Positions 4,629 through 63,235 of a DNA stretch of 64,000 nt are shown here, in pieces. Where the stretch lies: positions 71,601,267 through 71,665,266 of the forward strand of contig OY720346.1 in NCBI GenBank assembly GCA_963082975.1, given 5' to 3'. A model generated the notes under the pieces. That model was not told where the DNA came from and did no database searches. It was given only the letters and a program-made list of their open reading frames with translations. Numbering within the stretch: position 1 is the stretch's first letter; every line of letters starts with the position of its first letter. A program made the position numbers and the translations under genes. The stretch comes from Labia minor (taxonomy: Eukaryota > Arthropoda > Insecta > Dermaptera > Spongiphoridae).

Positions 4629-5653
4629 CAGGGTCGGTTCTAGGGTTTTGAGTGCGTTGGACAAAACAAAATTTGCCACCGTTTCAAACAAATTATCTTT
4701 TAAATTTGGCCAACGCCCCTTTTCCAGAAAAAAATTTTCTCAGCGCTGCCTTGGAAATTAACTTTTTTTACCGACCGACGATAGTAAGGGAGGATTTCAC
4801 ACCAAATTTCACATGTGGAGATTTTTACATATCTCCACGAAACAGAAAAAAGTATTTTTAGCATGATGTATGTCTGTCTGTCCGTCTGTATAGATGTGTA
4901 CAGCCTGAACAGCTCAACGGATTTTGATGAAATTTGGTATATTTACTTAATGCATCAGTGGGATGAATTGATCAACTTTTGGTGTAAATCCGGAAACCGG
5001 AAGTGGTAGTATTACCGATCGACGATAGGAAGGGAAGGGTTATTTTCACACTAAATTTCACATGAGGAGATTTTTTACATATCACCACGAATCATGCATT
5101 TTGTATTGGTTTTATCCTCGGGAAAATCATCTTCATTAGTTTTTTCTTAATTTAAAATTATATGACGTCACAGCCAGCTCCTACTTATATATTATATTTA
5201 AAATAAAATTAAAAATATTTATGTTATATCCATATCTGTTTTTTATTACATTAATAGATATATTAAAATTATTTGAAATTGTTTCTGTAGCTGGAAATTA
5301 ATTTATTTCAAACCGTCGGTCGGTTCGGACCTGGCCACAGGTCAACTTATTTAATTTTAATAACAATTAAACAGAAAGATAAATGTACCTATTTGCAAAA
5401 TATTATAAATAAAGCTGTAAATTATATACATTGAATTTATGTATCTATTTAATGATTTCAGAATAGAAAAGTAATATTCACGTAATTTTCCCCCTTGTGA
5501 CCATCACCGCCCCCCTAGATCGTTCCAGCGCCCACGAGGGGGCGGTAGCACCCACTTTAAGAAACACTATTTTAAATAATGAATATAGAAAAAAATATTT
5601 TATATTCTTAAATCGGCGCTCATCAAAATTTGGCGCCCCTTTATCCGGCTCTG
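4629..5653. mobile_element. hAT-type element, family N, abutting a FAMeT splice donor
   Basis: The left terminus is CAGGGTCGGTTCTAGGG and the right terminus TTATCCGGCTCTG. The flanking octamers TAAATACA (4621-4628) and TAAATACC (5654-5661) differ by one base. The right duplication, read on the minus strand, is G|GTATTTA: the last base of FAMeT exon 2 plus the start of its intron. The interior holds a family B insertion (4770-5349). The right arm contains a second GC-rich repeat fragment with CCCCCTAGATCGTTCCAGCG. No transposase ORF is present. Confidence 0.75.
4770..5349 (+). mobile_element. Family B Helentron-like element, copy 1
   Basis: The 5' end is ACCGACCGACGATAGTAAGG. The microsatellite core is TCTGTCTGTCCGTCTG, followed by GATTTTGATGAAATTTGGTA and CCGGAAACCGGAAGTGGTAG. 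The 3' end has the inverted motif CGTCGGTCGGT followed by the hairpin GACCTG-GCCA-CAGGTC and AACTTA. It lies inside the family N element. It includes a TGACGTCA palindrome. Non-autonomous; the small open frames in it are not genes. Confidence 0.8.
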
Positions 5654-37190: not shown

Positions 37191-38082
37191 TACCAATACT
37201 TTAATTGTAAATTAGCTAAGTATATTATTTGTTTTGTTTTTTTTGAAGTATATATGTATAGTCAATAGATCAGTCAAATGATTAGAAAATTCTTTAAAAA
37301 TAAGAATTATCCAAAAAAAGGTTTACTACTGGATTGACTATTCAATGCCGGGGGCTGTCAAACCGGGCGACCATCTGGGGCGCCAACATTTGAGGAGCGC
37401 CGATATAAAAATAAAATACTTTTATATCATTATTTTTGGTATAATTTTGAATTTTTACTATTTGTTTTTTAATTTGAAGTAAATTTATATATTCTTTGAT
37501 GAAAGGATGCCAAATTTAATTTTGTCCGAAGGCGGTCAAAACGGCTCTTGAACTGTTAAATACAGGAAACTACTGAAAAGGCCTACCAGCACCATAAAAT
37601 CAATACAATTGAAATGATAGTTGGAATGAATTTAGATTCCAAAAGCACAGAAAAATAAAATGGAATTAATTAAATATTTCAAAGTCAATTAAAACAAAAT
37701 AAAAAATTAATTTATTAAAAATATCTAGATAACTCATTAATTGATTAAAATTTCACTTTTATAATATAAATTACTATTGAATTGTAAAACCATCAATCAA
37801 TTTCAGGTATACAATAACGTATTATACTTGATAAATAATGAATATTTTATTTGTCATTTATCCAAGAGTTGATGAATAGTATAAATTGATTTGTGGAATA
37901 ATAAATAAAACTATTATCATATTTCTTTAATATATTAGATGATATTAATTAAATGTTTTTATATTATTATTCCTGGTATCCATTACTTAAAAAAATAATT
38001 AAATTTATTGGAAATATTTTTAATAAATTACTATATTTTTAGAATAATAAAATAAAACAAAATAAAAATTAATATATATATT
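37191..38082. other. Intron sequence; possible hAT remnant near 37344-37555
   Basis: About 37344-37555 has GCCGGGGGCTGTCAAACCGG and GGCGGTCAAAACGGCTCTTG at its edges, weakly inverted and possibly an old hAT MITE of the GGGGCGCC type. No target duplication found. The rest is AT-rich and unassigned. Confidence 0.35.
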
Positions 38083-38619
38083 CGAGGTGTGTCTAAAAAG
38101 TTCGGTGAATGGTATGATAAAAACATAAAAAGAGAATGTTAATTGTAAATACCTTTATTAACCTTCAAAATACTCTCCACTAGCCACAACCCACTTCTGA
38201 CAACGTTCGTATAACGCTTGAAAACTGTTGGAGAAGTCTTGATGTGGAATCGTTCTCAGAGTAGCCGTCACAACGTTAAGGCCGGCAATCCTCAAGCAGG
38301 ACACCAGAAAACACTACTTACTGTGTCTTTGCTAATACCCGATTCTTCGACTATTAGTCGCAGAGTCAATCGTCGACCTTTTGTTAGCATCTCTCGAACA
38401 CGTTCAGTGTAGATTGCCGGCCTGAACGTTGTGACGGCTATTCTGAGAACGATTCCACATCAAGACTTCTCCAACAGTTTTCAAGCGTTATACTAACATT
38501 GTTAAAAATGTATAGTGGCTAGTGAAGAGTTTTTTGAAGGTTAATAAAGGTATTTACAATTAGCATTCTCTTTTTATGTTTTTATTATACCATTCACCGA
38601 ACGTTTTAGACACACCTCG
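38083..38619. mobile_element. Palindromic mariner-derived element
   Basis: Ends CGAGGTGTGTCTAAAAAGTT and ACGTTTTAGACACACCTCG. The inverted arms run about 215 bp each, down to AAGGCCGGCAATC / GATTGCCGGCC, around a loop of about 115 bp. On the minus strand the left arm reads QALYERCQKWV, then ASGEYFEG and a stop, which is the C-terminal end of mariner transposases; the right arm holds the same region inverted with more changes. The left flank ends TT and the right starts TA, so the TA duplication is incomplete. Non-autonomous. Confidence 0.85.
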
Positions 38620-38699
38620 TATATATATAAATAAATATAAATATAATATTTTTTTAATATTTATATTTAAGCTATACATTTAAGATTTTTATTTTATTT

Positions 38700-41111: not shown

Positions 41112-42160
41112 GTGACCAAACGTCCCGTTTTTCAGGGATTGTCCCGTTTTTAGGTGCTAGCGTGTCCCAGCGTCCCGAAAAAAGTCTTCGGGACAGCCCA
41201 TTGTCCCGTTTTTTTTAAATATTTAGAACATTTCGTACTTTTTTCCAAAATTTGTTCAATTTGCTTCTAAAAAAATATGCTCAAACGTTGACTGGACTAA
41301 GTATTTGAAAATTTCGTAGTTTTTTTCAAAATTTTTTCAATATGATTCTAAAAAAAAAAAAGAAAAAAAAGGTCAAACGTTTTTTGGACTAAGCTCTTGA
41401 ACGTTTCGCACTTTTTTTCAATTTTTACCGACCGACGATAGTAAGGGAGGTATTGTTTTCACACCAAATTTCACATGTGGAGATTTTTACATATCTCCAC
41501 GAATCATGCATTTTCTAAACAGAAAAAAGTATTTTTAGCATGATGTCTGTCCGTCCGTCTGTCCGTCTGTCCGTCCGTCTGTCCGTCCGTCTGTCCGTCC
41601 GTATAGATGTGTACAGCCTGAACGGCTCAACCGATTTTGATGAAATTTGGTATATTTACTTAATGCATCAGTGGGATGAATTGATCAACTTTTGGTTCAA
41701 ATCCGGAAACCGGAAGTGGTAGTATTAGCGATCGACGGTAAGAAGGGAAGGGTTATTTTCACACCAAAGAAGATTTTTTTATATATCACCACGAATCATG
41801 CACTTTGTATTGGTTTTATCCTCGAGAAAAATCATTTTTATTAGTTTTTTCTTGATTTAAAATTATATGACGTCATCCAGCCATTCATGACGTCACAGCC
41901 TGGTCTTGCATATATATTATAAATAAAATAAAATTAAAAATGTTTATATTTATTATTTATGTTTCCATATCTGTTTTTTATTACATTAATAGATATATTA
42001 AAATTATTTGAAATTGTTTCTGTAGCTGGAAATTAATTTACTCCAAACCGTCGGTCGGTTCGGACCTGGCCACAGGTCAACTTATTTTCAATATGATTCT
42101 AAAAAAAAGGTAAACCTTTTGTCCCGGTTTGGTGTTTTCGAAATATGGTCACCCTATGTA
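41112..42160. mobile_element. hAT-like element (family K) split by family B
   Basis: The left end AGTGACCAAACGTCCCGTTT and right end GAAATATGGTCACCCTA are inverted (AGGGTGACCA type). The interior has repeated CTTGAACGTTTCG..TTTTTTTCAATATGATTCTAAAAAA units and GTGTCCCAGCGTCCCG. The flanks do not give a clear 8-bp duplication. A family B element is inserted at 41427. Confidence 0.6.
41427..42084 (+). mobile_element. Family B element, copy 4 (best full-length copy)
   Basis: From ACCGACCGACGATAGTAAGG to the end TCGGACCTGGCCACAGGTCA then ACTTA. It includes the TCCGTCCGTCTG microsatellite, paired TGACGTCA sites near 41870 and 41889, and the intact uninterrupted site ACCGTCGGTCGGTTCGGACC at 42046, which is the empty-site equivalent of the Transib-like insertion at 47748. 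The host K-element unit TTTTCAAT appears on both sides, suggesting an 8-bp or longer junction repeat. Confidence 0.88.
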
Positions 42161-44840: not shown

Positions 44841-45369
44841 TCTATAGCTGTTCTTCCTGAATTAAATTATTCTTGTAGTATAAATTAAAAAAGAGTAAAA
44901 TAAATATCATAAATTAGATTTCAATCGAATTGACAAAATAATTAATTAATATAATTATTCGCAATTTCTTTCATTCTATCTACCGATAGAATAAATGTTT
45001 AAATAATTTTCAATAGTAAAAAAAAGATAGTCCAACAAATTCCCCTTCAAATTGACCAACGTAACTGAAAGAGGAGAGAATTAGTGGTGGAGGGGGGGAA
45101 CGAGTGGAGGGAGCAATTCGTAACCAGGTAGATAGATAAATATCCTTCTTCAGTTGTTCACTACATTCCAATCGGATTAAACGTCATTTTAATTATCCGT
45201 GCAGATGTTGAATTCTAGGTTATCCGCCTGATTATGTAAGTAAAAAACACATGTGGAGCGTATACCGTTGTCATATAATCAAAATCAGCATATCTAATTA
45301 AATTAAACCAATAATATTTATATAATAATAAGAAGAAGAAAATGAATGAATTGAATTTATAAAAAAAAG

Positions 45370-46240
45370 TTTGGATCTCAGTTAACAAAATATTGCCCTG
45401 CCCAATATAATAAATAAATTGTTGTTTAACTAATAATTAAATAAATATCGTTTTTTTAAATTCTCTAAGAAAAAAACTCTCTTTATATTTAAGTTCCTGA
45501 AAATTGGGTTACACAAATTATATAATTATATAATTTCCGTCGTATGTATGTGATGTCTGTAACATTATGAAGTTAGTTACAAATTCAGTTTAAATTTAAA
45601 TTGCAAACACCGTTTGCAACGGGTACGTCTAGTCGTAAAAATATATTATATATGAATTGATTTATAAATAATTTTGGATCTCAGTTAACAAAATCTTGCC
45701 CTGCCTAATATAATAAATAAATAGTTGTTTAACTAATAATTAAATAAATATCGTTTTATTAAATTGTTTAAGAAAAAAACCTCTTTCTTTATATTTAAGT
45801 TACTACAACATCAAATTATATAATTTCCGTCGTATGTATGTGATGTCTGTAACATTATGAAGCTAGTAACAAATTCAGTTTAAATTGAAATTTGCTAGCA
45901 CCGTTTGAATCGGGTTTGTCTAGTCTTAAAAATATTTTATATTTATTGAATTTATAAAAAAATTTTGGATCTCAGTTAACAAAATCTTGCACTGCCTAAT
46001 ATAATAAATAAATAGTTGTTTAACTAATAATTAAATAAATATCGTTTTATTAAATTGTTTAAGAAAAAAACTTTTTCTTTATATTTAAGTTACTGAAAAT
46101 TGGGTTGTTTACAACATCAAACTATATAATTTCCGTCGTATGTATGTGATGTCTGTAACATTATGAAGTTAGTTACAAATTCAGTTAAAATAAAAAATTT
46201 GCTAACACCGTTTGCAACGGGTTCGTCTAGTCTTAAAAAT
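45370..46240 (+). repeat. Three tandem ~300-bp units with Helitron-like 3' ends
   Basis: Units start TTTGGATCTCAGTTAACAAA at 45370, 45673 and 45964. Each ends in CACCGTTTGCAACGGGT..GTCTAG|T or a close variant (the second unit's hairpin is mutated), i.e. a CCGTT-TGC-AACGG hairpin, a 6-7-base spacer and CTAG before T. Each carries GTCGTATGTATGTGATGTCT and ATTATGAAGTTAGTTACAAA, shared with family M. Tandem 3'-end arrays are known for Helitrons. Confidence 0.7.
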
Positions 46241-47148: not shown

Positions 47149-48997
47149 ACCGACCGACGATAGGAAGGGAAGGTATTGTTTTCACACCAAATTTCACATG
47201 TGAAGATTTTTACATATCTCCACGAATCATGCATTTAGTTAACAGAAAAAAGTATTTTTAGCATGATGTCTGTCCGTCCGTCTGTCCGTCCGTCCGTATA
47301 GATGTGTACAGCCTGAATGGCTCAACGGATTTTGATGAAATTTGGTATATTTACTTAATGCATCAGTGGGATGAATTGATCAACTTTTGGTATAAATCCG
47401 GAAACCGGAAGTGGTAGTATTAGCGATCGACGATAGGAAGGGAAGGGTTATTTTCGCACTAAATTTCACATAGGAGATTTTTTACATATCACCACGAATC
47501 ATGCACTTTGTATTGGTTTTATTCTCGAGAAAAATCATTTTTATTAGTTTTTTTCTTAATTTAAAATTATATGACGTCATCCAGCCATTCATGACGTCAC
47601 AGCCTGGTCTTGCATATATATTATAAATAAAATAAAATTAAAAATATTTATGTTATATGCCTATCTGTTTTTAATTACATTAATAGATATATTAAAATTA
47701 TTTGAAATTGTTTCTGTAGCTGGAAATTAATTTATTTCAAACCGTCGCACAGTGGTATGAAACGCCAAAAAAGCTGGCCAAAAATCGAAAATTGAAAAAA
47801 TTTTTTTTTGCATGTCGTTTATGGTATTTTGTTGAAGACATATTTATGTACGAAAAGCTGAAAATGTAGAGCACTACCATGACTCTACGAGTTTTCCGAA
47901 CATCTCAAAGTCAGCTGTTTTTACTTTCTCACGAGATTTCCCAAAATGTCTGAAATTCGAGCTCAGTCAAAATTGGTGTTTCGTTTCATAGAAAAGTTTC
48001 ATTTGCAACTTGCGACATGGAAACTGTTGCTGGAGGTACGTACATGGACTTTTTTATTTTGTTTGCTAGAAATGCATGTATTATATTGATATTGGCTGAT
48101 TTAAACCGCTTGTGTCAGAAAATGTAACCTGACGAAAAACTTTTCAAAAAACATTCCGCATTTATTACATTGGTGACCATTGGTGACAATCTCATTTGAA
48201 TTATAAAGATAAAGGTCTATAGATAAAGAATCATGAAGAAAAAATTGCTCCTTTTTGCCCCATTTGTTCCTATGAATTTTTTTCCGAGCGCGCGAACGTC
48301 AACAGACTAGGGCCTATGGGACCCACAGGTACCTGCAGGTTAGCGCGATTAATATCTCGTTAAGGTGCACCTGTCACTTTTCAAAAGAAGGAAAGATATT
48401 TGAAGTAAAATCAATGTAACAAAAAAGAAGAATATATTTGTGCAACACGATCGAAATGATAAAAATGAAATAAAACACGGTAATTACCAAAATGTAACTG
48501 TTAGTTATTTGTCTTACTGATAATAAAATATTTTTCAGAAATGCACTTTCTCTTGAAGTGAGTCCATCACTCACAATTGGCATATTTTTACTATCGAGAA
48601 AATCATCTAATTTCAATATCTTAACATGAAAACCCCTAAGTTTCGATGGTTGTGAGCTTTACGGATTTTCTCTGCATGACGTCATTTTTTGAAAAATCAA
48701 CACATCATTTGAAATTTATCATTTTTTTTCGTACAATCTAACTTCAATTTCGAAATTTTCGGCTCAAAAAATCCCAGAGAACATACAATTGCGAATCTGA
48801 CGTCACTTTTCTAAAAATCTGTCCGCCATTTTGAATTCGCCATTTTTTTTTTTGTCAAATTTAAATTTCCTGACTCTCAAAACTATTGCCTACAAAATTT
48901 CAAGCTGTTTCACCAACATCTTCATTTTTGGCCAGCTATTTGGGCGTTTCAGACCACTGTGCGTCGGTCGGTTCGGACCTGGCCACAGGTCAACTTA
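47149..48997 (+). mobile_element. Family B element, copy 5, interrupted by a Transib-like element
   Basis: The B 5' part (47149-47747) runs to AATTTATTTCAAACCGTCG, and the 3' part resumes at 48962 with CGTCGGTCGGTTCGGACCTG through the terminal hairpin to AACTTA. The interruption splits the 3' subterminal motif. Both flanking pieces are otherwise colinear with copy 4. Confidence 0.88.
47748..48961. mobile_element. Non-autonomous Transib-like transposon
   Basis: Starts CACAGTGGTATGAAACGCC then AAAAAAGCTGGCCAAAAAT. The right end is its near-exact complement (TTTTTGGCCAGCTATTTGGG then CGTTTCAGACCACTGTG), about 39 bp with few mismatches. The flanks are a 5-bp duplication CGTCG (47743-47747; 48962-48966). 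The terminal heptamer CACAGTG equals the RAG recombination-signal heptamer. Transib elements are known for a CACWRTG-type start and 5-bp GC-rich duplications. At 1,214 bp with no ORF over 80 codons it cannot encode a full Transib transposase, so it is non-autonomous. The superfamily call is inferred from ends and duplication length. Confidence 0.75.
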
Positions 48998-50948: not shown

Positions 50949-52128
50949 TAAGTTGACCTGTGGCCAGGTCCGAACCGACCGACGGTTTGAAGTAAATTAA
51001 TTTCCAGCTACAGAAACAATTTCAAATAATTTTAATATATCTATTAATGTAATAAAAAACAGACATGGATACATAAATAATAAATATAAACATTTTTAAT
51101 TTTATTTTATTTATAATATATATGTAAGACCAGGCTGTGACGTCATGAATGGCTGGATGACGTCATATAATTTTAAATTAAGAAAAAACTAATAAATATA
51201 ATTTTCTCGAGGATAAATCCAATACAAAGTGCATGATTCGCGCTGATATGTAAAAAATCTCCTCATGTGAAATTTGTTGTGAAAATAACCCTTTCCTTCC
51301 TATCGCCGATCGCTAATACTACCACTTCCGGTTTCCGGATTTGCACCAAAAGTTGATCAATTCATCATACTGATGCATTAAGTAAATATACCAAATTTCA
51401 TCAAAATCGATTGAGCCGTTCAGACTGTACACATCTATACGGACGGACAGACGGACGGACGGACAGACATCATGCTAAAAATATTATTTTCTGTTAAAAT
51501 AAGTTGACCTGTGGTCAGGTCCGAACCGACCGACGGTTTGAAGTAAATTAATTTCTAGCTACAGAAACAATTTCAAATAATTTTAATGTAATAAAAAACA
51601 GATATGAATACATAAATAATAAATATAAACATTTTTAATTTTACTTTATTTATAATATATATGTAAGACCAGGCTGTGAGGTCATGAATGGCTGGATGAC
51701 GTCATATAATTTTAAATCATGAAAAAACTAATAAATATGATTTTCCCGAGGATAAAACCAATACAAAGTGTATGATTCGTGGTAATATATAAAAAAAATC
51801 TCCTCATGTGAAATTTGGTGTGAAAATAACCCTTCCCTTCCTATCGTCGATCGCTAATACTACCACTTCCGGTTTCCGGATTTGCACCAAAAGTTGATCA
51901 ATTCATCCTACTGATGCATTAAGTAAATATACCAAATTTCATCAAAATCGATTGAGCCGTTCAGGCTGTAAACATCTATACGGACGGACAGACGGACGGA
52001 CGGACAGACATCATGCTAAAAATATTATTTTCTGTTAAGAAAATGTATGATTCGTGGAGATATGTAAAAATCTCCACATGTGAAATTTGGTGTGAAAACA
52101 ATACCTCCCTTACTATCGTCGGTCGGTA
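50949..52128 (-). mobile_element. Family B head-to-tail dimer
   Basis: The first unit (50949-51499) runs from TAAGTTGACCTGTGGCCAGG to TTTTCTGTTAA and lacks the 5' 95 bp. The second (51500-52128) is complete to TATCGTCGGTCGGTA. The two are very similar, including GACGGACAGACGGACGGACG and paired TGACGTCA-type sites (one mutated to GAGGTCA in the second unit). Confidence 0.88.

Positions 52129-60369: not shown

Positions 60370-63235
<2,866 letters not shown>

Follow-up and report, generated by a model that had tools for sequence, protein, structure and literature searches.

The 64-kb stretch of DNA analysed here (the window) carries a non-autonomous Transib with an internal deletion; of the copies of this element that we examined, nearly all use one and the same site of a single host repeat, family B, a larger point that a preliminary description of the insertion had missed. 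The target spot is the 3' subterminal repeat of B, an abundant HINE/DINE-1-like repeat. The explanation that we favour, and consider very probable, is that this non-autonomous element is moved by a RAG1-related transposase of 3.65-kb copies with an extended palindrome as target, which would make the family in effect site-specific.

The window element and its host repeat

The element proper (1,214 bp) occupies 47748-48961 on the + strand; its ends and its duplication can be read directly, and its pieces match the ends of the full-length copy L010 (see below). It lies between two 5-bp copies of CGTCG, at 47743-47747 and 48962-48966, both recognised by direct reading and comparison of the flanks, so that the span 47743-48966 previously assigned to the element is right for the element together with both CGTCG copies, the element itself being shorter. 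The other terminal features that had been reported (a CACAGTG start, inverted ends, CGTCG on both flanks) are directly legible: the heptamer-like CACAGTG is present at both ends, and the terminal inverted repeats, which begin with CACAGTGGTATGAAACGCC at 47748-47785 and with CACAGTGGTCTGAAACGCC on the - strand at 48924-48961, are 38 bp long and, when the two ends are compared, identical at 35 of 38 positions. A 19-base end pattern (up to 3 mismatches) is found twice in the 64-kb window against 0.03 expected. The bases adjoining CGTCG differ on either side, which fixes the duplication at exactly 5 bp, as had been claimed.

Joined with a single CGTCG, the flanks match, across the insertion point, four empty sites in other B copies of the window: 5314-5318 and 42049-42053 on the + strand (CGTCG starting at 5314 and 42049), and 50980-50984 and 51531-51535 on the - strand (CGTCG starting at 50984 and 51535). 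Only one of these four had been cited before; its match to the rejoined flanks holds, although the 19-nt stretch is 42045-42063, one base inside the 42044-42064 originally given. We ruled out that CGTCG belongs to the element and not to the target, since each empty site has a single CGTCG and the sequence beside other copies can instead be CGGCG, CGCCG, CGATG, TACCG or CGACC. Animal CACTA/EnSpm elements make 3-bp duplications and Chapaev elements 4-bp duplications; the 5-bp duplication and the Transib transposase of the present family led us to reject both identities.

The interrupted B copy lies on the + strand. Its part left of the insertion (47149-47747), delimited by its recurrence in the window and by flank comparison, starts with the ACCGACCGACG subterminal repeat, and its right part (48967-48997) holds the rest of the 3' subterminal repeat, a stem-loop ACCTGGCCACAGGT at 48977-48990, and the end CAACTTA. 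In the 23 stretches compared, B is laid out as a T run, ACCGACCGACG near the 5' end, a (GTCY)n core, inverted CGTCGGTCGGT near the 3' end and the stem-loop, and its surroundings are T-rich, without clear duplication. HINE/DINE-1-like elements are described as non-autonomous Helentrons with inverted subterminal repeats, a 3' stem-loop, T-rich surroundings and a tandem core (PMC4067079). The 3' repeat of B, ~25 bp from the end, sits nearer to it than that described for mite HINEs (38-60 bp; PMC4067079); apart from this distance, family B, judged by its sequence layout, fits the HINE/DINE-1-like kind.

Elsewhere in the window, three frames compared with Pfam gave no match, and neither did the window compared with Rfam at gathering scores. 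An open frame of 302 codons at 61263-62171 (- strand) has no Pfam match and insignificant PDB matches only; it may resemble ZBED/hAT-derived transposase proteins. A 207-bp unit is repeated head to tail at 61011-61424 with 99% identity, and a 218-bp inverted repeat at 38073-38629 (arms 93% complementary and 121 bp apart) is perhaps another inverted-repeat element. Tandem units of ~300 bp fill 45363-46196 and contain three CCGTCG sites, with CGTCG at 45538, 45828 and 46134.

Full-length copies and their predicted transposase

We searched the window's own genome (604 Mb, 71 contigs) with the 19-base end pattern, allowing 1 mismatch, and obtained 124 + 120 = 244 matches, the reversed control giving 0. 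Among 58 copies at the B site, 35 measure 1,000-1,040 bp, two reach 3.65 kb and the rest range from 0.8 to 2.1 kb. Both 3.65-kb copies, L010 (C2:88561419-88565064; 3,646 bp) and L054 (C1:78888544-78892190), have the same ends as the window element, occupy the same B site and contain an uninterrupted frame of 612 codons, counted from stop to stop. Aligned with L010, the window copy corresponds piecewise to the end regions on either side (98-100% identity), and the middle is absent from it. A G+C-rich stretch of 64 bp (48283-48346) is without counterpart in either full-length copy and without another match in the window; it splits the Transib copies into two groups, being present in 46 of the 58. 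The family looks young because the median pairwise identity of its ends is 0.983. The only exact end match in IMG/VR (L001) was taken as chance, as it shows no similarity to L010 and resembles the window in just two stretches, both short and weakly matching.

The 612-residue frame of L010 matches chain 6pqn over query residues 102-575 (E 8.9e-107). This chain is labelled 'putative DNA-mediated transposase', and we take it to be the Hztransib transposase, which fits the residue numbering. The predicted catalytic residues D207, D315 and E529 align with chain residues 109, 208 and 419, which, when shifted by 17, become D126, D225 and E436, the residues described as catalytic in Hztransib (PMC6941560); the acidic DDE residues are by this alignment kept in the putative transposase. 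The frame also matches RAG1 weakly (3jbw, E 2.1e-4), and the L010 protein passes the Pfam RAG1 model (25.9 bits, cut-off 25), yet genome-wide that model gave no match, as in 14 control genomes; NCBIfam gave no match for the transposase. The preliminary description had called the element a Transib, had predicted a mobilising one elsewhere in the genome and had proposed a search for the ends and for a Transib transposase gene carrying them; L010 and L054, whose shared CACAGTG ends, 5-bp duplications and transposase frame go together, bear out the identification as well as the prediction.

The only other L010 frame of more than 100 codons, 161 codons upstream on the same strand, had no Pfam match over the cut-off; it lies just upstream and may be a first exon. 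No RAG2-like gene, and hence no RAG1L-RAG2L pair of the kind that marks RAG-like transposons, was recognised among the L010 frames of more than 100 codons, a set that a gene of multiple small exons could escape. Nine changes, 6 of them non-synonymous and 3 synonymous, separate the L010 frame from that of L054, which we count against the main explanation. The other transposase matches in the genome are a two-piece copy on C10, an incomplete copy on C4, short pieces and eight stretches of 74-79% identity, in a search that distant Transib lineages could escape. Those diverged pieces, found at L015, L019 and six other places, are 74-79% identical and the other genome pieces 94-100%; a second Transib lineage may once have existed in this genome.

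Target sites and their independence

Our census comprised all 57 copies named by the 100 end matches listed out of 244, all exact (C1, C2, and C4 to 71.65 Mb). Fifty-three of them sit at AAAC/CGTCG/GTCGGTT of family B, 48 as judged by both ends and 5 (L051, L052, L055, L057 and L060) by the surviving end. The four census copies off this spot are L017 (CGGCG), L059 (TACCG), L050 (no clean duplication) and L020 (CGACC), the last close to the 5' terminus of a B copy. A similarity list obtained with a query that included CGTCG supplied ten more copies, which were left out of the census and are all at the B site (10/10); L069 duplicates L005 and was removed. Genome-wide, end patterns at the B site number 118 on the AAAC side and 113 on the GTCGG side, compared with 244 end matches overall, a ratio that is approximate since up to 2 mismatches in 28-31 bases were tolerated for the former and 1 in 19 for the latter. 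Exact ends without the C that precedes the duplication number only eight: three belong to L017, L020 and L050, and the five newly fetched ones carry CGCCG (L110), CGCCG again (L112 and L114, a single site present in two small contigs) and CGATG (L113), or have a damaged right end (L111). With the exception of L020, non-B flanks had no match to B over more than 32 bases.

Duplications were also tabulated over the copies, as had been suggested earlier. They measure 5 bp in 58 two-ended B-site copies (with one base changed in L003) and at six other sites, while in L050 and L111, both non-B copies, no clean one is seen. Three of the six off-B duplications are CGNCG (CGGCG, CGCCG, CGCCG) and three are not (CGATG, CGACC, TACCG). 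We count against the main explanation both these three and the 4/57 census copies off the B spot.

CGNCG is the described Transib target (PMC4735498, PMC5704228), and it is found here at the B site, CGTCG, and at three of the six other sites; a plain CGNCG preference, with B merely a common carrier of it, would account for such duplications. We find this reading barely credible, because only 5 of the 56 pre-insertion CGNCG sites of the window are the B site, and 53/57 copies at that rate has p 7e-51, the window rate being taken as that of the genome. Extending the rule to CCGNCGG does not suffice either. That 7-bp motif has 32,862 sites in the genome (reversed control 19,239) and the 9-bp palindrome ACCGNCGGT 21,151 (reversed control 2,073), so that under a 7-bp rule ~36% of insertions, about one third, would be expected at CCGNCGG outside ACCGNCGGT; among census copies with a readable site, none is at a CCGNCGG that lacks ACCGNCGGT. 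The target motif thus reaches at least the 9-bp palindrome, a requirement stricter than the published 7-bp Drosophila Transib motif, which also counts against the main explanation.

Most of the sampled palindromes belong to B. Of the 87 ACCGNCGGT sites listed for the first 3 Mb of C1, exact B sites make up 65; among the remaining 22, 20 were fetched (two were not) and 17 proved B-like, which places 82 of the 85 examined sites (~96%) in B. With 82/85 of the 9-mers in B, nothing more than the 9-bp palindrome is needed to account for the confinement to B. CGTCGGTCGGT is also part of the 5' subterminal repeat of B, but T replaces C before it, and no census copy was found there, L020 (near that end) excepted. 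On these sequence comparisons the family appears to be a Transib whose targeting is unusually strict and, in effect, site-specific.

It is also conceivable, although we think it unlikely, that the transposase or a partner recognises B itself, through sequence past the palindrome, the stem-loop or a bound protein, the palindrome being only part of the address. Of the 16 positions AAACCGTCGGTCGGTT, 14 are invariant in 58/58 B-site copies and the other two are kept in 57/58, and no census copy lies at ACCGNCGGT outside B. This invariance is, however, simply the B consensus, and both main B variants are used (the ninth base after the duplication is G in 46 copies and T in 11); moreover, with 82/85 of the 9-mers in B, only ~2 of 53 insertions should by this measure fall outside B, so that finding none is unsurprising. 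The stronger form of this idea, a RAG-family transposon that is a true site-specific parasite of a rolling-circle HINE and reads its 3' subterminal repeat past the 9-bp palindrome, is to us an equally doubtful proposition. If the B repeat were read as such, the element would have ~20,000 harmless and renewable landing sites, and might now and then be carried along by a moving B.

B is indeed very abundant: the genome holds 22,524 matches to its 22-base target region (up to 2 mismatches; reversed control 0). Few real insertions could then have been multiplied as a Transib-in-B composite by the rolling-circle movement of B, and one pair, L006 and L058, does have outer DNA beyond B in common; that pair may be a duplication. 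As a general explanation we consider this very improbable. In the 58 distinct B-site copies, the Transib lies 29 times in one orientation in B, 28 times in the other and once undecided, and variation among the B flanks of filled sites (median identity 0.905) exceeds that among the Transib ends (0.983). Identity is 0.923 among 24 empty sites, 20 of which are exact matches to the 22-base pattern and perhaps younger than average, and 0.916 between the groups. How similar two flanks are does not correlate with how similar their Transibs are (Mantel r 0.047, p 0.23), nor do pairs in the same orientation have flanks closer to each other than pairs in opposite orientation (p 0.66). Even L010, L024 and L040, with flanks that are identical wherever they align within 300 bp, are unlike in orientation or length. 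There is no hitch-hiking signal; altogether, the orientation balance, the variety of the flanks and the lack of correlation indicate that many Transibs entered pre-existing B copies.

We return to the favoured explanation, a Transib with an extended-palindrome target. The DDE transposase from the 3.65-kb copies, which by homology probably performs the moving, would bind the shared CACAGTG ends, excise the element and join it to the target with a 5-bp stagger; this cut-and-paste chemistry is proposed by analogy with Hztransib and RAG. The transposase would presumably read the palindrome directly, as a target motif that has grown from CGNCG to at least ACCGNCGGT. In an A+T-rich genome where ~96% of sampled palindromes lie in the B 3' subterminal repeat, such a preference would yield a family that is site-specific in effect.

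Comparison with known systems

Transib elements, the kind that gave rise to the vertebrate antibody-gene recombinase, have the end consensus CACWRTG. A close RAG1 relative that apparently needs at least 9 target positions would make the target choice of the RAG/Transib transpososome open to study by sequence and structure, and offers a natural comparison for targeting by RAG; the family also illustrates clearly how a mobile element can serve as the landing place of another. Transib termini are described as similar to RSS (PMC4411706). The present family shares with RAG and ProtoRAG a related recombinase core, heptamer-like ends and 5-bp duplications (PMC7204232), whereas the complete ones are described as a RAG1L-RAG2L pair.

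Hztransib of Helicoverpa zea (3,518 bp) is similar in length, with a homologous transposase (query 102-575), the same DDE positions and a 5-bp duplication; its reported insertion has a GCTCG duplication, unlike those found here, and the portion of its description consulted mentions no concentration in one repeat (PMC1852546). Drosophila hopper and transib2 likewise make 5-bp duplications, and their target motifs are described as palindromes extending past the duplication, G+C-rich for hopper (PMC3276498). Their motif is, however, the 7-bp CCANTGG, compared with at least 9 bp here, where nearly all examined copies lie in one repeat.

Fixed-target DNA transposons are few. Those named as target-specific in eukaryotes, in the passages concerned, are the Dada, Pokey and CryptonV families, Transib not being among them (PMC3706591, PMC8869645), and among the matches listed in the open-access literature, outside which many journals lie, we found no site-specific Transib. 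Dada elements resemble the present family in inserting strictly at a single site of a multicopy sequence (PMC3706591), but they form another superfamily, with 6-7 bp duplications, and target snRNA and tRNA genes rather than a mobile element; membership in Dada is ruled out by the Transib transposase and the 5-bp duplications. Pokey (a piggyBac in 28S rRNA genes) and some CryptonV (in microsatellites) share the fixed kind of target (PMC8869645), although they belong to other superfamilies with other targets, and CryptonV uses a tyrosine recombinase. Set beside these systems, the element is a Transib of the ordinary kind, and it is the strictness of its targeting and its landing place that are unusual.
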